A DNA stretch of 64,000 nucleotides from a virus, in the IMG/VR virus record IMGVR_UViG_3300023175_000005, positions 1 through 64,000 of that record, one strand, 5' to 3'. The position numbers and the translations under genes were made by a program. How positions within the stretch are numbered: position 1 is the first letter of the stretch; each line of letters begins with the position of its first letter. Shown here in pieces: positions 1 through 64,000 of the stretch. The notes under the pieces are model-generated. The model worked only from the letters and a program-made list of their open reading frames with translations. It made no database searches and was not told the origin of the DNA.

Positions 1-33
1 AACGGCTTCGATTTCAATGGCTTACACGGTGAT

Positions 34-57
34 CCTCAGGTGGCCCCTGAGGGGCCT
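34..57. repeat. Overlapping alternative hairpins
   Basis: CCTCAGG (34-40) pairs with CCTGAGG (46-52), loop TGGCC. GGCCCC (43-48) pairs with GGGGCC (52-57), loop TGA. The two stems cannot form together. No U-tract follows, so a simple intrinsic terminator is not supported. Confidence 0.55.
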
Positions 58-97
58 CACTGTGGTGTCACTTGTGAATCATCACATGAGGTTCACC

Positions 98-202
98 TGC
101 TAACCGTTTGAATTTATTGAGAAAATCCTCTGCGGGGTCAGAAGGTTACTACCTTACTACTAGACTCTCTACTACTATAAGAGCGTCACCTAACCGTTTG
201 AA
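98..202 (+). repeat. Direct repeat TAACCGTTTGAA pair
   Basis: The word TAACCGTTTGAA occurs at 101-112 and 191-202, each preceded by CACC (directly, or with TG plus one base between). The second copy is flanked by CTACTACTATAAG (169-181), and a similar word ends at 269. Confidence 0.5.
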
Positions 203-401
203 AACCGTGGAAAAAATCTCCCCTAGTACTACTACGCTACTATACACTTAACTACTATACTACTATAAGTTCAAGTTCATCCACTACTACACTATACACA
301 CAACTCATGTCTTTATAAGTCTTTGTTTCTAATGGATTCTTTTGGCCACTAAGTCATTGTTTTTGTTGGATTCTTTTTTTCATTTTTATATAAAATAAAG
401 C

Positions 402-429
402 TTGCGTATATGTGTAGTTGTGTTATATT
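402..429 (+). promoter_or_regulatory. Early promoter P1
   Basis: TTGCGT, 16-nt spacer, TATATT. It lies 40 nt before the start at 469, which has an AGGAGGG ribosome site at 456-462. Confidence 0.6.
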
Positions 430-468
430 AGTAGTATGTTAACAAAAATGCATATAGGAGGGCAACAT

Positions 469-783
469 ATGCTAAATGGACAAGTTTGTTTAACGGAAGC
501 AGTGCGTGTAGTACTAGTAGAAGAAGACGCACAATGGAAGGCGGAGTTTGAAAAATACGGCTACAACACAGACATGTGGGCAACATATGGGGAATTTGAC
601 GAGGAGTGGCGAGAAGACGTTTTTACAATAGACGTATTTGAAGACGAAACATATGGCTTTATATGCGGCAATGCTAGTGACAGGCGTGTATACGGATTTA
701 CAGTAGACGTGTACAAAGCAGAGGAAGCAGACGGCACGTATAGTTTTTGGATAACAAACGAAGACTACGCTACAATAGGATAA
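469..783 (+). CDS. Small early protein, unknown
   Basis: A 104-residue acidic, Tyr/Trp-rich soluble protein with no recognised domain. The frame is open from 418, but that ATG lies in the promoter. The ATG at 469 has an AGGAGGG site 7 nt upstream and is preferred. First of the plus-strand early cassettes, each with its own promoter. Followed by a 14-bp hairpin (792-828) overlapping the next promoter. Host-takeover function is only inferred from position. Confidence 0.75.
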   Translation: MLNGQVCLTEAVRVVLVEEDAQWKAEFEKYGYNTDMWATYGEFDEEWREDVFTIDVFEDETYGFICGNASDRRVYGFTVDVYKAEEADGTYSFWITNEDYATIG

Positions 784-791
784 AAAAAAGT

Positions 792-828
792 TTGCGCACA
801 GTGCATTTTTTGCTTGCATTGTGCGCAA
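792..828 (+). repeat. Hairpin overlapping the next promoter
   Basis: A 14-nt arm at 792-805 pairs with 815-828 with one G-T pair. The loop is T-rich. The right arm contains the -35 box TTGCAT (814-819) of promoter P2. No U-tract follows the stem, so termination is uncertain. Confidence 0.6.
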
Positions 829-841
829 CTTGTGCTATAGT
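814..841 (+). promoter_or_regulatory. Early promoter P2
   Basis: TTGCAT, 16 nt, TATAGT, with extended -10 TGC just before. Drives the gene at 877. Confidence 0.7.
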
Positions 842-21056: not shown

Positions 21057-21501
21057 GTTCTTTAGCCAATTCTTTGAGTTCTTTTTTTGTAGATATTCTA
21101 GCAAGTAATTCTACCTCGTCCATCTTCATTTCAGGATATATTTGCGATAGCATTTTTACTGCCTTGCTACTATCATCCTTTTTCTTTTTCAATCCAATCC
21201 AAGGATGAAATTCTTTTTTTCCTGTTTTACCTGCGACACATAAAAGCTGCCATTGCAGTTTAATATGGTTAGTACCGCCTAGCACATTCCAATTTTTGTT
21301 ATAGTATTCATTAACTTTGAAAACTGCTAATGCTTGCTTTTCATAACTGCCTTTGACACTGCTTATATAACGATTAAGATTCCACAAGTCAAGTTTAATA
21401 TCTTTCTTACCATCGTCGCCGGCAGCATCATAAAGTTCTTTAATTCCCATATCAATAGCAGGAATTAACTCCTTAAATAAATCTAGTTCTTTGTTTGCCA
21501 A
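21034..21501 (-). CDS. Hypothetical replication-region protein
   Basis: 155 residues, mostly helical and Lys-rich. The last 40 residues form a charged helical segment (MDEVELLARISTKKELKELAKEHG), like a small helical adaptor. Size and place are similar to a gp62 clamp-loader small subunit, but no clear signature is seen, so that is not called. Confidence 0.65.
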   Translation of the reverse strand: MANKELDLFKELIPAIDMGIKELYDAAGDDGKKDIKLDLWNLNRYISSVKGSYEKQALAVFKVNEYYNKNWNVLGGTNHIKLQWQLLCVAGKTGKKEFHPWIGLKKKKDDSSKAVKMLSQIYPEMKMDEVELLARISTKKELKELAKEHGVEYKP

Positions 21502-22157
21502 AGTTCAACATCCTCAGGTGAGTTTATCTCTACACCATTAAATTGTACACTAGAACAATGGATTTGCCAACCATTTTTTAACCAACGTAATTGTTCAAGA
21601 CCCTCTAGTTCTTCTTCTATAGGAACATCTAATGTTGGATATTGTTCTAATGCTTCTCTTGTATATCCATATATTCCTATATGCCAATCGCCATATCCAG
21701 TTGTTCCTCTGCCAAACCATAATGCACGATCACCAGTTCTAATAAGTTTGACACTATTAGGATCGTTTTTCATTTCATCTGGCATTTCTGTATAAGCAGT
21801 TACTACATTATAATTTTCTAATTGTTGTTTTACAGATAATATTATATCCTCTGTAATATCGGGCATATCACCTTGTACATTTATAAAATGTGTGTAGTCT
21901 TTTAATTTTTCTTGTCTTAAAGATATACCGCATCTTTCAGTTCCATTCATTGCATCATCAGTGTAAATTACGTTAGCATAGGGAATTTGGTGTGCAACTT
22001 TTCTACTATCTGTTATAACATATGTATCAATACCTGTTGCAGTACACTTGTTGTAAACTCTATTTACTAGCGGCACACCATTTAACATTGCAAGTGGTTT
22101 GTTTGGAAATCGTGTGCTGCCTATTCTAGCGGGTATAAGAATAGCGTACGATGTCAT
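21483..22157 (-). CDS. kdsB: CMP-Kdo synthetase-like cytidylyltransferase
   Basis: 224 residues (family about 250). Activates Kdo with CTP to CMP-Kdo. The N-terminus ILIPARIGSTRFPNKPLAML (about 5-24) is the nucleotide-binding loop of KdsB, with INVQGDMP (about 90-97) as the QGD metal/nucleotide motif. The ATG at 22157 sits behind a strong AGGAGGTGG site within the end of kdsA, so translation is coupled. kdsA lies directly upstream; no kdsC or kdsD is seen, so arabinose-5-phosphate and Kdo-8-phosphate phosphatase must come from the host. Other CMP-ulosonate specificity is possible. Confidence 0.88.
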   Translation of the reverse strand: MTSYAILIPARIGSTRFPNKPLAMLNGVPLVNRVYNKCTATGIDTYVITDSRKVAHQIPYANVIYTDDAMNGTERCGISLRQEKLKDYTHFINVQGDMPDITEDIILSVKQQLENYNVVTAYTEMPDEMKNDPNSVKLIRTGDRALWFGRGTTGYGDWHIGIYGYTREALEQYPTLDVPIEEELEGLEQLRWLKNGWQIHCSSVQFNGVEINSPEDVELWQTKN

Positions 22158-22890
22158 ATACCACCTCCTCAAAATCATCTAGTCGAAGCATATTCGGACC
22201 GTCGCTTGGTGCGTTATCAGGCAGTTTGTGAACTTCGAGGAAGAAATTTGATATCCCGAGAGCAGCCCCGCTACGACTGAAGCCAGGCACAAGATCACGA
22301 TTGCCGCCACTGCTAGTACCCTGTCCTCCGGGTTTTTGGGCAGCGTGAGTACAATCCAACACGATAGGAACAGGAAGATTGTTGAGCATCCAATCAAGGC
22401 CGCTGTAATCAACAACAAGGGTGTTATATCCAAAACTTGTTCCTCTTTCTGTGATCCAAACTTCTTTTGCTTCCGCACACTTACTTAGTATTCCTTTGAC
22501 ATCCCAAGGCGCTAAAAACTGTCCTTTTTTAATATTTACAATGCAATCTGTTGCACATGCTGCTTGAATTAAATCTGTTTGACGACATAAGAATGCAGGA
22601 ATTTGTAAGACATCTACAATGTGTGTCAAGTATTGTATTTGATCTCTTTCATGTATATCTGTTACAATTTTTAGATTAGGAATTTCTTCTTTCATATCAA
22701 GAAAATCTCTAACTGTATCATGTAAGCCTCTGCCTCGCTTACCATCTACACTTGTGCGATTTGCTTTATCAAAACTGGCTTTGAAATAATAATCAATACC
22801 TAGTTTATTGCATACACGTTTACATTCTTTTGCAATTTCTAAACTTTGTTCTAGTGTTTCGTGCTGACACGGACCTGCAATTATTCTCAT
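22126..22890 (-). CDS. kdsA: Kdo-8-phosphate synthase
   Basis: 254 residues (bacterial KdsA about 280; slightly trimmed N-terminus). Condenses PEP with arabinose-5-phosphate. AGPCQHE (about 5-11), FKASFDKANRTS (about 37-48), PAFLCRQTDL (about 97-106), VNIKKGQF (about 118-125) and DCTHAAQKPGG (about 178-188) are the substrate-binding blocks of the family and look complete. The Cys in AGPC and the His/Glu of the C-terminal part leave the metal class open. Overlaps kdsB by 32 nt and the upstream gene by ATGA, in an operon with a cupin. Confidence 0.92.
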   Translation of the reverse strand: MRIIAGPCQHETLEQSLEIAKECKRVCNKLGIDYYFKASFDKANRTSVDGKRGRGLHDTVRDFLDMKEEIPNLKIVTDIHERDQIQYLTHIVDVLQIPAFLCRQTDLIQAACATDCIVNIKKGQFLAPWDVKGILSKCAEAKEVWITERGTSFGYNTLVVDYSGLDWMLNNLPVPIVLDCTHAAQKPGGQGTSSGGNRDLVPGFSRSGAALGISNFFLEVHKLPDNAPSDGPNMLRLDDFEEVVYDIVRYSYTR

Positions 22891-36439: not shown

Positions 36440-37414
36440 ATGAAAAAACGTGCATTAGTAACAGGCATCACAGGACAAGACGGTGCTTATCTAGCAAAAT
36501 TATTATTAGAAAAAGACTATGAAGTATATGGTTTTGCAAGTAGACGAGTCAACCAAAATTATTCAAACACCGATTACTTAGGAATCACTGGAAAAATTAA
36601 CTTTGTACACGGTGATGTAACAGATATTAGCAGTGTTAATCATGCTATTAAAGTTTCTAGACCACACGAACTGTATAATCTTGCTGCAATGAGTTTTGTA
36701 GGACTAAGTTGGCAAGAACCAATTCATACAGCAAATGTTGATGCTATGGGTCCATTGTATATTATGGAGTCTTTAAGACAACATTCACCAGATACAAAAT
36801 TTTATCAAGCAAGCACAAGCGAAATGTATGGAAATAGTTATGAAGAAAATCATACACAAAACGAACTTACACCTATGCGTCCTAGATCACCTTACGGTTT
36901 TAGTAAAGTATTTGCACACAATGCTGTTGTAAACTATAGAGATAGTTATAGTTTATATGCAACTAGTGGCATTTTGTTTAATCATGAATCGCCTATTAGA
37001 GGTAAAGAATTTGTTACACGTAAAATTACAGACGGTGTTGCTCGTATCAAAGCAGGACTACAAGATACAATTGAGTTAGGAAATTTAGATCCTAGAAGAG
37101 ACTGGGGATTTGCAGGTGATTATGTTGAAGCAATGTGGTTGATGATGCAACAAGATACACCAGAAGATTATGTAATTTCAACAGGCAAAACTTGGAGTAT
37201 TAAAGAACTCTGCAATGCTGCATTTAGTGCTGCTGGAATAGATAATTGGGAAGATAAAATCGTAACAAATCCTGCATTTGTAAGACCTGCAGAACTTTAT
37301 TATCTAAAAGGCGATAGTACAAAAGCAAAAGAAAAACTAGGATGGGAGCCTAGTGTAAGTTTTGAAGAATTAATTACAATGATGGTACAAGCCGATTTGG
37401 AAAGATACAGTTAA
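36440..37414 (+). CDS. gmd: GDP-mannose 4,6-dehydratase
   Basis: 324 residues (family about 340-370). Converts GDP-mannose to GDP-4-keto-6-deoxymannose, precursor of GDP-fucose, GDP-perosamine and related sugars. Rossmann start ALVTGITGQDGAYLAKLL (about 5-22), active-site FYQASTSEMYG (about 120-130), YxxxK in SPYGFSKVFAHN (about 149-160) and substrate motif GNLDPRRDWGFAGDYVEAMW (split around 215-235) are complete. No fucose synthase or aminotransferase partner is in the window. Faces the opposite strand to the island. Confidence 0.92.
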   Translation: MKKRALVTGITGQDGAYLAKLLLEKDYEVYGFASRRVNQNYSNTDYLGITGKINFVHGDVTDISSVNHAIKVSRPHELYNLAAMSFVGLSWQEPIHTANVDAMGPLYIMESLRQHSPDTKFYQASTSEMYGNSYEENHTQNELTPMRPRSPYGFSKVFAHNAVVNYRDSYSLYATSGILFNHESPIRGKEFVTRKITDGVARIKAGLQDTIELGNLDPRRDWGFAGDYVEAMWLMMQQDTPEDYVISTGKTWSIKELCNAAFSAAGIDNWEDKIVTNPAFVRPAELYYLKGDSTKAKEKLGWEPSVSFEELITMMVQADLERYS

Positions 37415-42765: not shown

Positions 42766-42773
42766 TATTTATC
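42766..42773 (-). promoter_or_regulatory. Late promoter abutting the 42760 start
   Basis: Minus strand GATAAATA, ATACT, ATG; its first bases include the TGA of the terminase gene. Confidence 0.65.
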
Positions 42774-44358
42774 AATAGTTGCTGCTAATAAAGATAGGCA
42801 TTGGGGGTTCGTAATCTTCTTCTCCAGCCCCGTCCATTTGTGAAAAAGAATTATAAATGTTTACATCCCAATCTTTCATTACATTTATCATACGTAATGC
42901 AAGAAGCATACTGCTGACTAAGTCATCTGTTTGACCCGGCTTTGCTTGATAACTGCTTCCTGTTGCAACATAGTTTTTTAGTTCTGATATAAATGGTTTA
43001 CTACGAACAATAAGTTTATTATTTTCTATCATAGTTTTCATTCTAGCACATGCAGTAACTTTTGCACTGTGCGTTGTATTAAATCCTTTACGGAATTTAC
43101 GAACATGTCCTTTTCTAATAGGTTCACTAATAAACAACCCAGGTATCTGCTCTTCACCTAGATCAGCAATAACAAGTAGTGCTGCTTCACCTAATCCGTT
43201 ATTTTCAACACTCCAATATATACCGTTATCAGTTTTTCTTTCTGTTTCTAAGTACGTGCAAATATCTCGAAGCACTCTAATTTGTCCAGGAATACCTGTT
43301 GTATTATGTTGCCATTCTCCTACTTGTTCGTATGTAGGTAATTCTACGATCTGTATTGCTGCATTATCACCTCCTGTGCCCATTGAAGGATCTAATGCAA
43401 TAGCATAATTATACTTGGCATTAGGTTTTTTATACCAACGAGTTTGCCCCATATTAATTGTAGGCGAAACGCCTTCCATGGTTGCAAGATGTAAACTTGC
43501 TATAAGTGTTTCGTCAAATACTAAGAATTCACAACCATATTCTCTACGGAAGCGCTCTTCTCCAATACGTCCAATTTCGTCTTCTTTCCATTTTTCATCA
43601 CGGTCAGGATGCTCGTCCCAGTTTGCAAGAAAACTATGAAATCCGTTTCTTCCTGTTTCGCTTTCGTTTCCGAACTCGTCAAATTTATCTTCTGCTAGTT
43701 TCCAAATATTAGCAAACGTATCTTCGTCTGAGTTTGGCGTGCTTGTTATAATAGCACGACCACCTGTTGCTAGTGTAGGTGATATTGAAGTCCAAAATTC
43801 ATCTGCAATGTTAGGTTGCACAAATGCAAACTCGTCACAATATAGTAACGAAATAGACATACCGCGTCCAGTAGTGCCTGTTGTTGTTTGGCTTACTATA
43901 CGTGATCCATTTTCAAATTCTATTGAGCCCTTATTATAGGATACAACACCTGCTCTAATATGATCAGGACATAATTCATATACATAACGAATACGCTGCA
44001 TAATTTCTTGTGCACCTGTATATTTGTGTGCAGCAATTAGAATAGTTTGATCAGGATTAAACATTGCATACCAAGCAAGATAGATAGCAGCACAAGTAGT
44101 TTTTCCTGTTTGTCTAGGCATCATGTTTATATTAAATCTATAACTGTGATAGGAATGCATTAAGCGCAATTGATACTCATAGGGTTCAAATAACAATTTG
44201 CCTTTTACAGGATGTTGAATGTAAGCAAATTGTCTTGCAAAGTACAGATATCCTTCATCAGGATCCATGCAATTCATGAGATCCTGTATTTGGTTTTCGT
44301 TAAATGTTTCTTGCTTATTAGCCTTTTTGACTAATACTCCGTCAAGTGATTTACTCAT
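42772..44358 (-). CDS. 17: Terminase large subunit gp17
   Basis: 528 residues from the ATG at 44358 (a GTG five codons earlier is inside the promoter). DNA packaging motor ATPase and nuclease. Walker A MPRQTGKT (about 81-88), Walker B SLLYCDEFAF (about 168-177), TSTPNSDED coupling motif (about 206-214), and the RNase H-like nuclease with ALDPSMGTGGDNAA (about 308-321). All normal. No ribosome site; CTAAATA sits four bases before the ATG. Confidence 0.95.
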   Translation of the reverse strand: MSKSLDGVLVKKANKQETFNENQIQDLMNCMDPDEGYLYFARQFAYIQHPVKGKLLFEPYEYQLRLMHSYHSYRFNINMMPRQTGKTTCAAIYLAWYAMFNPDQTILIAAHKYTGAQEIMQRIRYVYELCPDHIRAGVVSYNKGSIEFENGSRIVSQTTTGTTGRGMSISLLYCDEFAFVQPNIADEFWTSISPTLATGGRAIITSTPNSDEDTFANIWKLAEDKFDEFGNESETGRNGFHSFLANWDEHPDRDEKWKEDEIGRIGEERFRREYGCEFLVFDETLIASLHLATMEGVSPTINMGQTRWYKKPNAKYNYAIALDPSMGTGGDNAAIQIVELPTYEQVGEWQHNTTGIPGQIRVLRDICTYLETERKTDNGIYWSVENNGLGEAALLVIADLGEEQIPGLFISEPIRKGHVRKFRKGFNTTHSAKVTACARMKTMIENNKLIVRSKPFISELKNYVATGSSYQAKPGQTDDLVSSMLLALRMINVMKDWDVNIYNSFSQMDGAGEEDYEPPMPIFISSNY

Positions 44359-44362
44359 ACAA

Positions 44363-44369
44363 TATTTAG
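44363..44369 (-). promoter_or_regulatory. Late promoter abutting gene 17
   Basis: Minus strand CTAAATA, TTGT, ATG. Confidence 0.65.
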
Positions 44370-44372
44370 TCA

Positions 44373-44398
44373 CAAAAATAGCGCCCTAAGGCGCTATT
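44373..44398 (-). terminator. Intrinsic terminator before gene 17
   Basis: A perfect 9-bp stem, AATAGCGCC (44377-44385) with GGCGCTATT (44390-44398), loop of 4; minus-strand reading ends in a T-run. It separates the 45522 gene from gene 17's own promoter. Confidence 0.85.
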
Positions 44399-46601: not shown

Positions 46602-47032
46602 CGCCCGCCTGTGTGGAACATATCTTTTTCAGTTATGATTCTAAAAGCAATACCTTTAGATTTACACCAGTTTCTAGCCGCTTCCCATTTTACTTGATTC
46701 AATGCCCAATGCAATTGATTTCTTCTGTTACGTCCTGTCTTTTCTTTTAATGTATGCATTTCAGGCTTTATTTCTATTACTTCAGTTTTTTGTTTACCAT
46801 TTTGATCTACATAGTGTATAAAAAAGTCAGGTACATAAATTGTTTGTTTGCCAGTAAAAGGATTTCTATAAGGAATCTTAATCGCTTCACTGGCCCACTT
46901 GTATATACTTGGATTCTCGTCACAAAACTTCATAAAGTGAAATTCCCAACTGCTACGATATGTAGGCATACTACCGCCTATATATTTGTCAGGGTTTTTT
47001 GGTCTGAATTTACCCTGAGCATACTTGGTCAT
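46598..47032 (-). CDS. 4: Head completion protein gp4 (nuclease-like)
   Basis: 144 residues (T4 gp4 about 150). PTYRSSWEFHFMKFCDENPSI (split about 24-44) and VPDFFIHYVDQNGKQKTEVIEIKP (split about 67-90) show the PD-(D/E)xK-type nuclease pattern with D and E-x-K typical of gp4 and TnsA-like folds. Needed for head completion before tail joining in T4. TAATG-coupled to the subtilase gene. Confidence 0.8.
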   Translation of the reverse strand: MTKYAQGKFRPKNPDKYIGGSMPTYRSSWEFHFMKFCDENPSIYKWASEAIKIPYRNPFTGKQTIYVPDFFIHYVDQNGKQKTEVIEIKPEMHTLKEKTGRNRRNQLHWALNQVKWEAARNWCKSKGIAFRIITEKDMFHTGGR

Positions 47033-48591
47033 TATCTTCTACCTATTTGTCCTACAATAGATAGGTTGAACGGTGTAAATAGATATCTATTTGGGCCATT
47101 TAAGATCCCAGATGTGTCTTGGTAATTATCTGTAGTACCATCAGTATAAAGTTTTCCAGTCTGTGCGTTATTATGAATATATGTTCTAATTTGTTCAGGT
47201 GTTGCTCCTGGATTTGCCTGTAGTATAGTAGCAATTACACCACAAACTTGTGGTGAAGCCATACTTGTACCGCTTATATTCATTTGTCTAAAAGAACTGT
47301 TTAGATGATAAGCACCTGTTGTAAATTCATTTGTATTACTACTAGCACTCATAATGTCTGAACCTGGTGCATAGATATCAACTCCTGGACCTTTTTCGGA
47401 AGAGGATCTTAATCTTTCTAATGTATCGTTGTGCATATCTGCTTCAATGTTTCCAGTCATTAATGCTCGTGTACTGTATGGTGAACTTCCTCTATGATAG
47501 TATGTTGTACCGCTACTAAGCACAGCAAAATTATCATAATCTAAACCACCACTTACATCTACTTTATGTGCTCTATTTCCTGCTGCAATACAAACATGAA
47601 CTCCTGCATCAATTAATTCTTCTACATCTGTGTCAACGCTTGCAATACGTACATTTGTTTGGTATGTGCTAAGTCCTACCAAATTCGGCACTAGCCCAAA
47701 ATCGTACCATTGATCAGTTGTTGCTATTGCTGTGCCTGTTTCTGATACACCTCTATAGTTTATTTCACTTACGCTTGTATAACTTCTACCATAACCCCAA
47801 CTCATATTTACAACAGTTGGTCTTTTCTTTCCAGTAGTAGGACTTACTGGCTTTGCATTATGCCATTCTTTAATAACATCAAAGCAATCAGTGACACTGA
47901 TACCAGTGCCACTGTCGCCTGAACCTTCCAAGCCACTAACCTTTACACTATAAATTTCTGCTGCTTTTGCCCAGCCGTATGTTTTACCTGCTGCAATACC
48001 TCCACAGTGTGTGCCATGCCCATTGTAATCTCTATAATGATTTGCGTTTTGTGTACCGCCGCCGCTAAATCCATCATACCAATCAATTGCTTGTGTTCTA
48101 TACCCGCCAAATTCATCTGTAAATTCAGGATGATCCATTTGCAATCCACTGTCTTGAATAACAACATCTACACCTGATCCATCTAAACTATATCTAAACG
48201 GTTCGGTAGAATTAGGTGTTGCGTTCAATGTGTTAGGATAAGGATTATTTGCAAAATGACAACGATACAATCCCCAGTTTGTGTAATCACCTGTGTCGCT
48301 ACTTGTCTTTTGCCAGTTAGCATCTTGTGTTGCAAAATGTCCAATTTCTAAAGTATCATCCTGATCAGGTGGCACTGCTACATCCATTACTCTAGAATCA
48401 TTTTTAAGTGCTTCTGCTTCTGCTTCAGACAAAGCATAGTGAGTATTACGGTTACTTGCTAATCTTGCATTTGCAACATCAACACTTCTATTAGGAACAG
48501 TTGATGAGCCTGTACTTTGTGTCATTTCTGCTGCAAAACTAGCAGGATCTACACCTTTGTTTAGTGTTACAATATATTCTTTTTCACTCAT
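47032..48591 (-). CDS. Subtilisin-like serine protease (S8)
   Basis: 519 residues. Complete catalytic triad: VIQDSGL (Asp147), NGHGTHCGG (His192) and NISGTSMASPQ (Ser443), with oxyanion Asn in AAGNRAH (Asn339). The N-terminal 90 residues look like an I9-type propeptide. No signal peptide, so it probably acts in the cell or is packaged. It may cleave a virion or host protein; not a homologue of T4 prohead protease gp21. Lies between gp4 and a fibre gene under late control. Confidence 0.92.
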   Translation of the reverse strand: MSEKEYIVTLNKGVDPASFAAEMTQSTGSSTVPNRSVDVANARLASNRNTHYALSEAEAEALKNDSRVMDVAVPPDQDDTLEIGHFATQDANWQKTSSDTGDYTNWGLYRCHFANNPYPNTLNATPNSTEPFRYSLDGSGVDVVIQDSGLQMDHPEFTDEFGGYRTQAIDWYDGFSGGGTQNANHYRDYNGHGTHCGGIAAGKTYGWAKAAEIYSVKVSGLEGSGDSGTGISVTDCFDVIKEWHNAKPVSPTTGKKRPTVVNMSWGYGRSYTSVSEINYRGVSETGTAIATTDQWYDFGLVPNLVGLSTYQTNVRIASVDTDVEELIDAGVHVCIAAGNRAHKVDVSGGLDYDNFAVLSSGTTYYHRGSSPYSTRALMTGNIEADMHNDTLERLRSSSEKGPGVDIYAPGSDIMSASSNTNEFTTGAYHLNSSFRQMNISGTSMASPQVCGVIATILQANPGATPEQIRTYIHNNAQTGKLYTDGTTDNYQDTSGILNGPNRYLFTPFNLSIVGQIGRR

Positions 48592-56526: not shown

Positions 56527-57003
56527 TTGTTTAAGCCAAACATTGTTTGTACCAACATCGTAATCTACTATCAGTTCGTTTACTGCTTGATAAACACCTG
56601 CATAATCAATATCATGACCAGTTAACCAGCCACCTTTTTTAACCTTAGGTGTATATGCTCTTATGTCTCTGCACACCCAAGGATAACTGTGATCTGCATC
56701 TATAAAAACTAAATCTTGAGAATTATCAGGAATATTTTTTGCACAATAATCGCTTAATCCTGCAAACGGTTTTAGCCTATCTCCGTACTTTTCTTGGATT
56801 TGTTTATTATAAAACCCTCTAATACTTTTATCTATTGCGTAAATCACAAGATCGGGATTATTATCTAATAAATGAAATGTTGTTCTGCCATCTCTTACAC
56901 CTACTTCGGTCATTGTTTTAATATTGTGTTTTTTTATCCACCAATTTAAAAAATGTTTTCTATTAGGTTTTCCTGTGTATTCAATTGTCTGATCTAAATT
57001 CAT
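56521..57003 (-). CDS. Methyltransf_24-like SAM methyltransferase
   Basis: 160 residues. TMTEVGVRDGRTTFHLLD (about 30-47) is motif I, and DLVFIDADHSYPWVCRDIRAY (split about 97-117) the Asp-rich DADHSY motif of these methyltransferases, with GGWLTGHD after. Acceptor unknown; may act on glycan or peptide. ATGA-coupled to the gene at 57000. Confidence 0.75.
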   Translation of the reverse strand: MNLDQTIEYTGKPNRKHFLNWWIKKHNIKTMTEVGVRDGRTTFHLLDNNPDLVIYAIDKSIRGFYNKQIQEKYGDRLKPFAGLSDYCAKNIPDNSQDLVFIDADHSYPWVCRDIRAYTPKVKKGGWLTGHDIDYAGVYQAVNELIVDYDVGTNNVWLKQL

Positions 57004-57692
57004 TTCATACCTATCCGCATAAATCTTGTATATTTTGTTAAAGATAATTCTCCTTCATAAAAAACGTGCATAGGTGTTTGTTCAGCAAATGTTTGTAAAT
57101 TAGAAACACAATTTATATGCTGTTCGTGTTCGTAATAGTTATTATTTTGTAATGCAACTATTGTGCCTGATGGAATGTCGTCATACCATTGCGTAAAATC
57201 TTCTATATGTTCACAACTTGTATTGATAATTGTATTAGGCATTTCAGTTAGTTCTAAACTTGTACCGTTTGCCCTAAAAGTTTCATGTGTAGTAGGATAT
57301 GTCATTTTTCTAATATCTAATGTGCTTGCTTTAAATTGCCAGCCATCCATTACATATGGTCGATTAATATTATCAGCAACATCTGCACAACTTGGATCTA
57401 TATCAAAGCTTCTAATCTTTTCAAACTTATCAGGAATGTATTCAAACATCATACCTGCAAGGGTGCCAAACCAGCCTGCACATATAAAAACTGTACCCAT
57501 ATCATTGGGTAAGTTTTCTACCATCCATTTTTTACTTTTCAATTGTCCTAAACTATACGCATCTACCATTGCATATTCAACTTCAGGAAATTTATGTAAA
57601 GTCCTTTTAAGTTGAGACACAGTTACGTTTTCAGGGTATAAAAATTCTAAACCGTTTAGGAATTGAATTACACTGCTGCTAAATTGTTGCAT
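57000..57692 (-). CDS. Methyltransferase-like protein
   Basis: 230 residues. FICAGWFGTLAGMMFEYIP (about 69-87) looks like a SAM glycine-loop, followed by IRSFDIDPSCADVA (about 93-106) as acidic motif II and TIINTSCEHIEDF at motif IV. TATAAATAC with ACT before the ATG and no ribosome site. Confidence 0.65.
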   Translation of the reverse strand: MQQFSSSVIQFLNGLEFLYPENVTVSQLKRTLHKFPEVEYAMVDAYSLGQLKSKKWMVENLPNDMGTVFICAGWFGTLAGMMFEYIPDKFEKIRSFDIDPSCADVADNINRPYVMDGWQFKASTLDIRKMTYPTTHETFRANGTSLELTEMPNTIINTSCEHIEDFTQWYDDIPSGTIVALQNNNYYEHEQHINCVSNLQTFAEQTPMHVFYEGELSLTKYTRFMRIGMK

Positions 57693-58523: not shown

Positions 58524-59678
58524 ATGCCACGCTTAAGCTTATATAGACCAAATAAAACAAATGATTATACATTTTTAGATGATGTAATTAGAGAACAATT
58601 TTACATCGGTGGCACCGACGTGAATGTACACAAATATCTAGGACCAAGAAATCCTACAGAAGAAGAAGCAACAGCAGAACAGCCACGTTATGATGCAGTT
58701 AAAGAGACTAACATTCAAGATATGCTGTTCTTGGAAAACAGAGATAGAAAATACGATCAAGATATCTACACAATACGTGGCATTTATAATGTAATAGATA
58801 ACGATTTTAATCTAAGTCAGTTTGGATTGTTTTTAAGCAATGATACATTGTTTATGACTATACACATAAATGAAAGTGTAAAAACACTTGGTAGAAAAAT
58901 TATGGCAGGTGATGTATTTGAACTGCCTCACTTAAAAGACGAATATGCTGCAAATGACTATAGTGTTGCACTAAAACGTTTTTATGTAGTTGATGAAATT
59001 ACTCGTGCAGCAGAAGGTTTTTCACAGACTTGGTATCCTCATTTATATAGAGTTAAACTAAAACAAATATTTGATTCACAAGAGTTTAAAGATATACTGG
59101 ATTTACCTGCAGGTGATGATGCTGATAATACTTTACGTGATGTACTAAGCACATTTGAAACTGAAATGAATATTAATAATGCTATTGTACAACAAGCAGA
59201 AGCAAATGCAAAAGCCGCAGGATATGAAACAAGTCACTTTTTTACAGTAGCAGTAGATGATGACGGCGTACCTACATTGAGGACAGCAGATTCAACAGAA
59301 ATAGATGCAAGTGGCAGTGAACTTTCAGATTCTATCTTAGATACTCCTATACGTGATGGTTATGACGGCTATCTAATAGGAGACGGACTTGCACCAAATG
59401 GTTCGCCTTTTGGTAGTGGGTTATCATTTCCTGACGCAAGTGCATCAGGAGATTACTTTTTGAGAACAGACTTTTTTCCAAATAGACTATTTAGATATGA
59501 TGGGAGAAGATGGGTGAAAGTTGAAGATAACGTAAGACAAACACTAACTAACACATCAACAAGAGCGCATCAGAAAGGTACGTTCATTAATAACACAAAC
59601 ACAAGCACTATTGGCGGTGAAGTTGTTGAAGAAAGACAATCACTATCAAAAGCATTAAAGATAAAGACGGATAACTGA
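58524..59678 (+). CDS. 14: Neck protein gp14
   Basis: 384 residues from the ATG at 58524 (T4 gp14 256). Residues about 1-190 match gp14: NIQDMLFLENRDRKY / IYTIRGIYNVIDNDFNLSQFGLFLSNDTLF / GRKIMAGDVFELPHLKDEY follow the family order of 'FGLF.S...F' and 'GD...P' blocks. The C-terminal about 190 residues are an extra Asp/Ser/Gly part with a LFRYDGRRWVKVED module like those in gp15 and gp18. Joined to gene 15 by a 1-nt overlap. Confidence 0.82.
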   Translation: MPRLSLYRPNKTNDYTFLDDVIREQFYIGGTDVNVHKYLGPRNPTEEEATAEQPRYDAVKETNIQDMLFLENRDRKYDQDIYTIRGIYNVIDNDFNLSQFGLFLSNDTLFMTIHINESVKTLGRKIMAGDVFELPHLKDEYAANDYSVALKRFYVVDEITRAAEGFSQTWYPHLYRVKLKQIFDSQEFKDILDLPAGDDADNTLRDVLSTFETEMNINNAIVQQAEANAKAAGYETSHFFTVAVDDDGVPTLRTADSTEIDASGSELSDSILDTPIRDGYDGYLIGDGLAPNGSPFGSGLSFPDASASGDYFLRTDFFPNRLFRYDGRRWVKVEDNVRQTLTNTSTRAHQKGTFINNTNTSTIGGEVVEERQSLSKALKIKTDN

Positions 59679-61162
59679 TGCAGTTTTTTTATGACGGACA
59701 AATACGTAGATATCTAACACAGATTATACGCTTATTAAGTAATTTTAGTTACCAAGACGGTGATGGTCAATTACGTCAAATACCTGTAACATATGGTGAT
59801 TTGACAAGACAAGTTGCGAGCATTATACGTGACAATAGTGAAAATAAGGTTCCTAGTGCGCCACGAATGGCAGTTTATATTACAGGAATCGAATTAGATA
59901 GACAAAGATTAAGCGATGCAAGTTATGTTAACAAAGTTAATATTAGAGAACGTGCATATGATTCCGATGGACAAGAATACCTAAACGAACAAGGCAAAAA
60001 CTATACAGTTGAAAGACTACATCCTGCTCCATACACATTAAGTGTAAATGCTGATATATGGGCAACAAATACAGAAATGAAGTTGCAAATTATGGAGCAA
60101 ATTTTAACATTATTCAATCCTAGTTTAGAAATTCAAACAACAGACAATTTTGTTGATTGGACAAGTTTAAGCGTAGTAAACTTAGAATTAGTAAACTTTA
60201 GTAACAGGAATGTACCTGTAGGTGTTGATAGTGAGATAGATATTGCAACTTTAGGTTTTTCTACTCCTATCTATCTAAGTGCTCCTGCAAAAGTTAAACG
60301 TTTAGGCGTTATTACAAATATCATTGCAAACATATTTAATGAAGAAAGTGGTGATATTGATTTGGGTAATAGTGAAGCAGAACTTGGTGCATATGAAGAT
60401 TCATTACATCCTATAGAACAAACTACACAATCAACAGATGCTTCAGGCGAAGTTGATATTGAAACACAAAGATCGGTAGATCCACTATTGAATGAAAGAG
60501 TTACACAAAGTACAACATTTAAAGATTATGGATTGTATGTTGAAGGTACACAAGCACGTATTGTTTATAATCGTGAAGTAGGAACAACTAACTGGAGAGT
60601 ATTATTAGAAGCATATCCAGGAACATATACAGCAGGGTTAAGCCAAATTAGAATGCGAACTGAAGGATCTGATAATTTTATTATTGGTACATTTGCTCTA
60701 AATCCGCTCGATGAAAGAATTATTAGTATTACATGGGATTCAGATACATTGCCTAGCAATGATGTAATAACAGGGCCTGCTAGAAATCCTGCAAGTTATA
60801 CAAGTATTGATTATGTTATAGAGCCTTCAAAATGGAATCCAAGTTCATATAAAACACCAGGACTTAGAGTGTTAGTAGTAAGCAATATTAATCCAAGTAA
60901 TCAAGTTGGTGAAGCAGGATACGACGGACCCGATGCATGGAAAAATACAGACACAAGTGATCCTGTTGCAGAAGCAAACGATATTATTGAATGGACTGGC
61001 ACAGAATGGCAAGTTATATTTGACGCTAGTGCAACAACTGATATAACACATATTAAAAATCTTAATACAGGTGTCCAATACAAATGGACAGGATCTGATT
61101 GGATTAAGAGTTGGGAAGGTGAGTATTCAGGAGGTAACTGGATGCTATTCTTAGACGGCTAA
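59678..61162 (+). CDS. 15: Tail completion/sheath stabiliser gp15
   Basis: 494 residues (T4 gp15 272). The N-terminus FFYDGQIRRYLTQIIRLLSNFSYQ, IPVTYGD and TEMKLQIMEQILTLFNPSL match gp15, which caps the tail tube and binds the neck. The extra C-terminal 240 residues contain Trp/Gly modules (IIEWTGTEWQVIFDA; YKWTGSDWIKSW) shared with the sheath and gp14. Follows gene 14 directly (TGATG). Confidence 0.85.
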   Translation: MQFFYDGQIRRYLTQIIRLLSNFSYQDGDGQLRQIPVTYGDLTRQVASIIRDNSENKVPSAPRMAVYITGIELDRQRLSDASYVNKVNIRERAYDSDGQEYLNEQGKNYTVERLHPAPYTLSVNADIWATNTEMKLQIMEQILTLFNPSLEIQTTDNFVDWTSLSVVNLELVNFSNRNVPVGVDSEIDIATLGFSTPIYLSAPAKVKRLGVITNIIANIFNEESGDIDLGNSEAELGAYEDSLHPIEQTTQSTDASGEVDIETQRSVDPLLNERVTQSTTFKDYGLYVEGTQARIVYNREVGTTNWRVLLEAYPGTYTAGLSQIRMRTEGSDNFIIGTFALNPLDERIISITWDSDTLPSNDVITGPARNPASYTSIDYVIEPSKWNPSSYKTPGLRVLVVSNINPSNQVGEAGYDGPDAWKNTDTSDPVAEANDIIEWTGTEWQVIFDASATTDITHIKNLNTGVQYKWTGSDWIKSWEGEYSGGNWMLFLDG

Positions 61163-61170
61163 TTATTTTT

Positions 61171-61602
61171 ATGAAAAAGATAATATGTAGTGGTGCATTA
61201 TTTTATACCCTCTCCACTAAAAGATTTTTAACTTTACATAGAACAGCAAAGAAAAATGCAGTATGGGGTCTTGTAGGCGGCACTAATGAAGAAAACGAAA
61301 CCGCATGGGAAGGTTTGAAGAGAGAAATAGAAGAAGAAATAGGATTTATTCCAAAAATAAAGAAAACTATTCCTCTAGAAACTTTTGTAAGCAATGACGA
61401 ACATTTTCATTTCCATACTTATCTTTGTGTAGTTGAAGATGAATTTTTGCCTATTTTAAATAATGAACATGATGGATATGCATGGGTACAATTTGGAAAA
61501 TGGCCTAAGCCTTTACACCAAGGCTTGGCCAATACTCTACGTAGTAAAACTAACCAAAACAAATTACAAACTGTGTTTGAATTAATTAACCTTATCTCTT
61601 GA
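61171..61602 (+). CDS. Nudix hydrolase
   Basis: 143 residues. Nudix box at about residues 36-58: GGTNEENETAWEGLKREIEEEIG follows G-x5-E-x7-R-E-U-x-E-E-x-G-U, with metal-binding Glu present. Cleaves nucleoside diphosphates linked to another group (substrate unknown; GDP-sugar or ADP-ribose types possible). Plus-strand, 8 nt after gene 15; its end overlaps the convergent repeat gene by 21 nt. Confidence 0.88.
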   Translation: MKKIICSGALFYTLSTKRFLTLHRTAKKNAVWGLVGGTNEENETAWEGLKREIEEEIGFIPKIKKTIPLETFVSNDEHFHFHTYLCVVEDEFLPILNNEHDGYAWVQFGKWPKPLHQGLANTLRSKTNQNKLQTVFELINLIS

Positions 61603-64000
61603 AACATTTTTTGGCAGTAAGAAAATACCATTATGGTATTGCTTACCCTCAACTTCATGTATAAACGAATGAGATGTACTTCTATCATACTCATTATCAT
61701 GTGTAAAGTAAACATCAAAGTCAAAATTACTTGTATCGACGTTTGACGAAATAGCCCAAAACATTTCTGTTTTAGATTCGTCTAGTGCTTTTAAATAATC
61801 TTCGTATGTATCAACAATAAATCTGTCGTATTCTACTGGTCCGCTTGCAACCGTATTCCATTCTTTTCTAGTAACAAGATGTCTGTGTTCAATTTCTTTT
61901 TTGCTTACAGGTTTGTTTTTGCTCATCAAGAACACACCGTTATAATATTCTTTATCTCCTACTTTGTGTACAAAGACATGATTTTCGTTTCTTTCGTATT
62001 CAAATTCATCATCTCTGTCATCAAAGAACAGATCAAACTTAAAGTTAGGATTAATTTCAACATTTCTGCTTTTAATCCAAAACATTTCTGTTGTAGACTT
62101 ACTAAGTGCCTCTAAGTATTCATCATAATTATCTACTTCAAAAATATTGTAAAGAACAGGTCCAGTTACTATTTGTTCATACTCTTTTCTTTCAACAATA
62201 TGTTTGTAATCAATTTCTTTTTTAGTTACAGGCTTATGCTTTGAAAACAAATATAGTCCGTCATAAGTTAGTTTATCGTTGACTTTGTGTAAAAACGCAT
62301 GATTCATTTTTCTATCAAACGTATTGTCATGTTTAAAATATAAATCAAAAATTGATTCATCGATAATTGTTAAATTTTGTAACTTACCCCAAAACATCTC
62401 TGTTTTAGATTTTTGCATTGCATCTAAATAATCATCATAAGATCCGATATCAAATACGTCATATCTAGTTTTTGTACTTGCAATTTCATTCCATTCTTTG
62501 CGTTTTACTGGATGTCTAAATTCTATTTCTTTTTTAGAAATCTTTGAGTGTTTACTACATAAAAATACACCACTATAAAGTTTTTCACCGTCAACATCGT
62601 GTAAAAACGCATGATTAATTTTTCTATCAAAAGCATTGTCGTGTGTGAAATACTTGTCAAATTTGAAGTTTTTCTTTATCTTTACATTTCTACTTAATGC
62701 CCAAAACATTTCTGTCTTGCTTTGTTCTAATGCATTTAGATATTCACCGTAAGTGTCAATATAAAATTTTTCATATTCTACTTGTGTTGAGCCAATGACT
62801 TTCCATTCTTTTCTTTCAATAATGTGTCTGTGTTCGATTTCTTTTTTGTTAAGAGGTTTTTTCGTTGAACAAAGGAATAAGCCGTTGTATAATTGCCTTC
62901 CATCAGCATCATGTATAAAGGCATGGTTTGTCTGTCTATCATACTCGTTTTCAAAGTCAAAATATATCTCCGGTATATTGCTACTAATGTTTCTACTATC
63001 CATCCAAAACATTTCTGTTTTAGAATTATTCAATGCATATTCGTATTCTTCATATGAATCAATATAGAATCTATCATAAATTACTGGACCAGTTGCTACA
63101 ATATCATGCTCAATACGTTCTACAGGAAATCTGTAAGTAACTTCCTTTTCTGAAAGTATTTTGTTTTTAGAACACAAAAATAATCCGTTGTACTTGTTAT
63201 TGCTATGCAAAAATGCATGTGTTTTGTTTTTAAGATCTTTTTCATGATGTGGAATATAAAAGTCAAGATCGATGTTAACTTTTATATTTTTACTGCTCAT
63301 CCAAAACATTTCTGTTGTAGATGATTCAAGTGCAGTTTTATATTCATTATAATTATCAATTTCAAAAAAGTCATACTGCTTTGGTGTACTTGCAATCATA
63401 CGTACTTCTTTTTTGTTAACTAAAAATCTATAGTCAATCTCTCTATCTGAGGGATTATAAAATTTGTTACACAAAAATATGCCATCAAATTGATTTCTTT
63501 TTCCATTTCCGAACACATGATTATATTTGTAACTCCATTCGTCTGGTTCAAAAGAAAAGTCAAAGTTTTCTGATACATTAACATCATTTGGTATTAACCA
63601 AAACATATCAGTTGAGGTTAGTTCTTGTGCTTGACTATAAGTGTCAACAATTTGTATATTATATTTTTCTTTTAATTTTTTGTATTCGCTATCTTTACGG
63701 CTACCTAAGAAAAATATATCAAATTTTTCTTTGCCATAATATGGATCATATACGCCACAAATATTGCTGTGTGTATATTTCTTTTTTGCATCAAACTTTG
63801 TTGGAACTAGTTGTACTTTATTCCAACTTTTAGGATGTCTACTTTTTTTTCTTACGTAAGGAAATAAGTGAATACCGTTACTTTGTTCAGCACTTGGTCT
63901 AAAATGCCAAGGAAATGTATCTAATACTTTAATTGACTTATCAACAAGCCAAACATAATCAGCAACTTCTGCATAATCTTTTACTTGTTCATAATCTTCT
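61582..64000 (-). CDS. Long tandem-repeat protein, 5' end outside the window
   Basis: At least 805 residues; the frame stays open to the right edge, so the start lies beyond 64000. It consists of about eight repeats of 85-95 residues. Each contains a (S/T)(K/T)TEMFW core, then (D/N)-rich strands, NHAFLH, (Y)xGxxLxSK, KKEIxxRHxVxRKEW and IDTYxxYLxAL. One unit at the right end has FDIFFLGSRKDSEYKKL before STDMFW. The TEMFW core with preceding helix resembles the donor-binding segment of some phage GT-A-like proteins. Function unknown; structural or enzymatic roles are both possible. Confidence 0.8.
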   Translation of the reverse strand, partial: EDYEQVKDYAEVADYVWLVDKSIKVLDTFPWHFRPSAEQSNGIHLFPYVRKKSRHPKSWNKVQLVPTKFDAKKKYTHSNICGVYDPYYGKEKFDIFFLGSRKDSEYKKLKEKYNIQIVDTYSQAQELTSTDMFWLIPNDVNVSENFDFSFEPDEWSYKYNHVFGNGKRNQFDGIFLCNKFYNPSDREIDYRFLVNKKEVRMIASTPKQYDFFEIDNYNEYKTALESSTTEMFWMSSKNIKVNIDLDFYIPHHEKDLKNKTHAFLHSNNKYNGLFLCSKNKILSEKEVTYRFPVERIEHDIVATGPVIYDRFYIDSYEEYEYALNNSKTEMFWMDSRNISSNIPEIYFDFENEYDRQTNHAFIHDADGRQLYNGLFLCSTKKPLNKKEIEHRHIIERKEWKVIGSTQVEYEKFYIDTYGEYLNALEQSKTEMFWALSRNVKIKKNFKFDKYFTHDNAFDRKINHAFLHDVDGEKLYSGVFLCSKHSKISKKEIEFRHPVKRKEWNEIASTKTRYDVFDIGSYDDYLDAMQKSKTEMFWGKLQNLTIIDESIFDLYFKHDNTFDRKMNHAFLHKVNDKLTYDGLYLFSKHKPVTKKEIDYKHIVERKEYEQIVTGPVLYNIFEVDNYDEYLEALSKSTTEMFWIKSRNVEINPNFKFDLFFDDRDDEFEYERNENHVFVHKVGDKEYYNGVFLMSKNKPVSKKEIEHRHLVTRKEWNTVASGPVEYDRFIVDTYEDYLKALDESKTEMFWAISSNVDTSNFDFDVYFTHDNEYDRSTSHSFIHEVEGKQYHNGIFLLPKNVSRDKVN

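Follow-up and report, generated by a model that had tools for sequence, protein, structure and literature searches.

GT-A glycosyltransferases (GT2-like enzymes such as RmlT, WrtF, ppGalNAc-T and chondroitin polymerase) carry a DxD motif where the third strand ends; the xED catalytic base and the C-His of this fold have been defined previously (PMC7185993). Catalytic motifs can be lost from a GT-A protein that is nevertheless retained: COSMC (C1GALT1C1), a GT31 pseudoenzyme, has lost both DxD and xED and acts as a chaperone for T-synthase (PMC7185993). Marine myophages carry glycosyltransferases that are thought to modify host O-chains (PMC7029224), and virion glycosylation is known in mycobacteriophages through earlier work that is cited in PMC12619734.

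Here we describe a protein made of tandem units from a phage of aquatic bacteria, encoded at one end of a 64,000-nucleotide stretch of viral DNA (the window). Like COSMC, it appears to be a GT-A protein whose catalytic motifs are lost and which, by analogy, may persist as the helper of an active transferase; COSMC, however, is a single full-length eukaryotic domain, whereas such phage arrays string together as many as 16 shortened domains. The intact domain found in its relatives resembles the GT-A glycosyltransferases in fold and in the placing of DxD. In contrast to those enzymes, the array units correspond to the DxD-side half only, lack the DxD itself and stand in tandem, and an intact domain is absent from the window protein. 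Long multi-domain glycosyltransferases of giant viruses, CeV-01B and ChoanoV1 among them, are weak structural matches (E 0.01–0.02), but these are annotated as glycosyltransferase domains, and the array units are reduced half-domains. Better structural matches to a three-unit model came from two uncharacterised proteins of uncultured Caudovirales phages in BFVD, A0A6J5LK21 and A0A6J5L5L5 (E 2e-8 and 5e-8), with 10–12% identity over the match. A partial literature search found no published description of such arrays, although one may exist.

The array gene and its units

The minus strand of the window, a strand that the preliminary description left unstated, carries an 805-codon frame that is open at the window edge and stops at 61582. 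The window is bases 1–64000 of a parent record of 256,558 bp, in which the complete gene spans 61582–64110 and encodes 842 aa, in agreement with the preliminary description of at least 805 residues running on past the window. Seven units were detected at residues 148–836, at 93–133 bits each, using an independent profile made from 431 units of other phages, with the window phage and its near-identical relatives left out. The best of 200 shuffled versions of the protein reached 2.3 bits with the same profile, so the tandem repeat is real. The eighth of the eight units originally counted is a divergent N-terminal unit visible by profile–profile comparison only, in which its E was about 1e-5 against the intact GT-A-like domain and about 1e-6 against the unit profile. 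The repeat period is 99–107 aa, rather than the ~90 residues first given. Unit 7 is cut short at its C-terminus, where orthologs run on into further units and the intact domain.

Table 1. Coordinates of the array gene, its units and nearby genes in the window
Feature	Position	Residues	Strand	Remarks or evidence
Array gene, in-window part	61582..64000		-	ATG start beyond window edge
Divergent N-terminal unit, 'ADYVWLVDKSIKVLDTFPWHF'	63784..64000, DNA on to 64026	about 29-109	-	profile-profile
Unit 1, TDMFW	63382..63669	148-243	-	98 bits, independent unit profile
Unit 2, TEMFW	63085..63375	246-342	-	114 bits, independent unit profile
Unit 3, TEMFW	62785..63078	345-442	-	117 bits, independent unit profile
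Unit 4, TEMFW	62473..62775	446-546	-	133 bits, independent unit profile
Unit 5, TEMFW	62161..62463	550-650	-	117 bits, independent unit profile
Unit 6, TEMFW	61837..62151	654-758	-	125 bits, independent unit profile
Unit 7, TEMFW	61603..61830	761-836	-	93 bits, independent unit profile
NUDIX hydrolase, convergent, conserved neighbour	61171..61602		+	Pfam PF00293 9e-16
T4 gp15-like tail sheath stabiliser, conserved neighbour	59678..61162		+	Pfam PF16724 1.5e-22
Paralog of Rossmann 'MT' gene	57000..57692		-	51% identity, E 8e-72

The motifs named at the outset are kept well beyond this protein. Across 463 distinct units, including those of relatives, W25 of TEMFW is conserved at 95%, H55 of NHxF at 99%, G66 at 99%, L69 at 100%, E80 at 98%, K90 at 94% and S97 at 97%. 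Selection on the repeat, as earlier supposed, is borne out by comparison of the window gene with a 95%-identical relative, which gave dN 0.025 and dS 0.39 (dN/dS 0.065), spread over all units, with the units all similar.

The protein could not be placed in a named family, as the preliminary description had stated, and no known repeat family emerged: searches of Pfam, PHROGs and NCBIfam gave no match to the array family above thresholds. Neither the window protein nor the intact domain nor a relative had a real match at E<=10 among 50,697 phage records, and a profile of the intact domain retrieved nothing at E<=10 from the sequences of the PDB. A stretch matching Pfam DUF6697 scored 20.6 bits, below the gathering score of 23.9 (E 4e-4); it was confined to one unit of the window protein, was missing in the paralog described below and was taken as chance. 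No T4 late promoter box TATAAATA was found near the array gene, and scans for sigma-70 promoters and terminators gave nothing clearly above chance.

Relation of the units to the GT-A fold

The unit profile aligns to residues 43–110 of the intact-domain profile, which is the DxD-containing side, with a profile–profile E of 6e-12, or 2e-10 with separately made alignments, both being E-values for a single comparison. The intact domain has the DxD, with D57 and D59 invariant in 32 sequences; DxD is present in 0 of the 463 distinct units. Other features of the intact domain are YGYGG, a candidate glycine loop, and an FRE that is invariant; its C-terminal part has no invariant His.

Structure models, built on 31–36 sequences, point the same way. 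A model of the last unit together with the intact domain (pLDDT 90) matched 46 PDB chains at E<=1e-3, nearly all of them GT-A glycosyltransferases or nucleotidyltransferases, with RmlT, WrtF, ppGalNAc-T and chondroitin polymerase at the top; TM-scores for these matches were low (0.2–0.4), and the query contained a unit as well as the domain. As modelled, the intact domain of the paralog and its relatives is a GT-A fold. An AF2 model of three units of the window protein (pLDDT 93) had GT-A enzymes as its best PDB matches, which were weak, at E 0.01 and above. This model has the strand–helix–strand order of the core with the first beta-alpha element missing. The elements of a unit are, in order, a strand, a helix, the strand of the DxD site, two more strands and a long last strand; missing from it are the first strand–helix element and the entire C-terminal helical part, and with the latter the xED catalytic base and the C-His.

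These comparisons support descent of the units from that half of a GT-A-like domain which lies on the donor side, and on sequence grounds we regard the units as reduced, non-catalytic GT-A half-domains. The resemblance to GT-A proteins that had been proposed therefore stands as ancestry and not as enzymatic activity.

Relatives, neighbouring genes and the domain-less form

The same phage carries a second array gene at 155.7–158.3 kb, whose 854-aa product has six units and then, at the C-terminus, a domain of about 225 residues containing TEMFWIVDGDAQIVDDF, and a third related locus with a single related domain at 139 kb. A search of IMG/VR for further phage copies found 507 stretches related to the units and 171 related to the intact domain. 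The architectures include the free domain (224–236 aa) and arrays of 1 to 16 units followed by the domain, in proteins of up to 2,013 aa.

Bacteria have the intact domain without tandem units (Streptomyces, Bdellovibrio-like bacteria, Rhodobacterales, Bacteroidota and several metagenome assemblies), and no tandem units were found among the 160 genomes tested. The few single unit matches in bacterial genomes are not part of tandem arrays; in at least three cases the open frame includes the intact domain too. Many actinomycetes (L113–L155; Streptomyces, Kitasatospora) have an intact-domain homolog with conserved neighbours, and the homologs scanned received no name from Pfam (two members) or NCBIfam (one). 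An Oligoflexia assembly (L108:6747-8708) encodes a fusion of Radical SAM/SPASM with the intact GT-A-like domain; elsewhere, no neighbours are as common as radical-SAM genes, which suggests a linked pathway.

The array gene of the window lies in a T4-like tail module, a context that is fixed by the nearby gp15-like tail sheath stabiliser. Gene order at this tail locus is kept among relatives: fibre, small gene, GT2-like gene and array, then the convergent NUDIX and gp15-like genes. The fibre is a protein of 3,367 residues with an S74 chaperone end. The GT2-like product has a Pfam Anp1 match above cut-off, and its gene stands directly upstream of the array in 17 of the 18 distinct tail-locus cases that have an upstream gene, a count made on mechanically called frames from contigs that are often partial. 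The GT2-like and array genes overlap by 14 bases, the end of the former lying over the start of the latter, and the 3' end of the NUDIX gene overlaps the end of the array gene by 21 bases.

Array-plus-domain genes at the second type of locus sit with radical-SAM and UDP-glucose-dehydrogenase-like genes and a Rossmann gene, labelled 'MT' by motif only, that has no Pfam or PHROG match. By the same mechanical calling, 51 of the 57 distinct full-domain cases at loci of this type have 'MT' no more than three genes downstream. In viruses and bacteria together, 'MT' (L009:8272-9180) is a conserved neighbour of the intact domain at 123 loci.

Some other genes of the window were assigned by reading of the sequence only. 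KdsA/KdsB-like and GDP-mannose-dehydratase-like genes occur at 21483–22890 and 36440–37414, and the phage seems, from these, to carry genes for surface-sugar synthesis. A subtilase-like protease, recognized by motif (HGTHCGG, GTSMASP), lies among the tail genes at 47032–48591. The terminase (42772–44373), for its part, is nearest, at 52%, to those of PA5oct-type Pseudomonas jumbo phages.

We compared 29 distinct tail-locus proteins. Complete proteins that bear the domain, from uncultured phages, have 9–16 units; over all tail-locus proteins the counts range from 5 to 16, the lowest coming from genes cut by contig ends. Only three distinct sequences lack the domain (the window type, L011 and L184), with seven units each. 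The window protein and L184 are about 53% identical, with synonymous sites near saturation (dS 1.7), and both end at the same point within the last unit; no remnant of the catalytic domain was seen downstream of the array in any of the three frames. The common end point in so diverged a protein and the lack of a downstream remnant indicate that the domain-less form is probably old and selected. A gene fragment or pseudogene was considered and is ruled out by the dN/dS of 0.065 together with the end point common to L184. Our reading of these sequences is that the array was amplified in phages ahead of one intact, DxD-bearing GT-A domain, and that the window lineage later lost the catalytic domain while the array was kept under selection. 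In one relative, a single in-frame TAA (L233:9944-9946) splits the array gene after the seventh unit and before the eighth; it may be genuine, programmed or due to a sequencing error.

Proposed function and alternatives

Our preferred reading, favoured with some reserve, is that the array of non-catalytic GT-A half-domains is a scaffold or acceptor-binding arm that works with a glycosyltransferase. Such a protein would probably hold or position sugar-bearing molecules for an enzyme; it would bind an acceptor, either a glycan chain or a repetitive protein, and present it to the active transferase. In most phages the array's own C-terminal domain would be this enzyme. The window phage would use a separate one, for which gene order proposes the GT2/Anp1-like protein whose gene lies upstream and overlaps that of the array; the array-plus-domain paralog is the other candidate. 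The likely target would be the tail fibre encoded just upstream, again as judged from gene order, or a glycan of the host or phage surface. A glycan-modifying role is argued for by the overlap with the GT2 gene and the fibre neighbour, and by the radical-SAM and UDP-glucose-dehydrogenase-like genes of the second locus. A more specific version, in which the arm is a virus-specific repeat module, unit number (0–16) tunes the reach or the product length of one catalytic domain and the window array acts in trans, is put forward tentatively. The domain-less form is rare and array plus domain is the rule, so the window protein could also be a relic with some other use. The residues conserved in the units may, moreover, serve structure alone.

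The position of the gene in the tail module, after a large tail fibre, a small protein and the GT2 gene and adjoining gp15-like and neck genes, would equally suit a virion component, that is, a fibre or adhesin of GT-A-derived, lectin-like modules whose copy number sets length or avidity, and the variation from 5 to 16 units at the tail locus (contig-cut genes included) could be read in the same way. The same arrays, however, also occur at the second locus among sugar-biosynthesis and radical-SAM genes, most of them end in an intact DxD domain, which is a better fit to an enzyme than to a fibre, and no structural PHROG or Pfam family was matched; we therefore consider a virion role unlikely, if conceivable. 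Binding to successive sugars of a polymer, with unit number setting chain length for the C-terminal transferase as a ruler or processivity clamp, would account for the presence of 0 to 16 units ahead of a single conserved transferase domain and for the near-invariance of polar H55, E80, K90 and R84. The window protein nevertheless has no transferase domain, and the conserved residues may be purely structural, which makes a ruler quite improbable.

COSMC and the overlap with the GT2 gene could together be taken to mean that the array is a chaperone or scaffold that stabilizes a specific transferase and does not bind glycans, but the retention of up to 16 units would then be left unexplained, and we give this little credence. 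The 'array of enzymatic modules' suggested in the preliminary description would be favoured by the GT-A ancestry and by the fact that some GT-A families work without DxD (PMC7185993). Against it, DxD is lost from all 463 units, and the first beta-alpha element is missing along with the entire C-terminal half; active glycosyltransferases are thus largely excluded, and there is hardly any probability left for them. Binding modules, the other half of that suggestion, remain compatible with the arm that we propose.

The array illustrates how an enzyme fold may be turned into a tandem repeat module. The intermediates are still present, from the free domain, through one and up to sixteen units joined to the domain, to units alone, so that the descent of a repeat protein from an enzyme can be followed directly. 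The family is common in IMG/VR and yet is invisible to Pfam, PHROGs, NCBIfam and the records of cultured phages. Its pairing with a conserved set of radical-SAM and Rossmann genes suggests that aquatic phages, and some bacteria, have a glycan chemistry not yet characterised.
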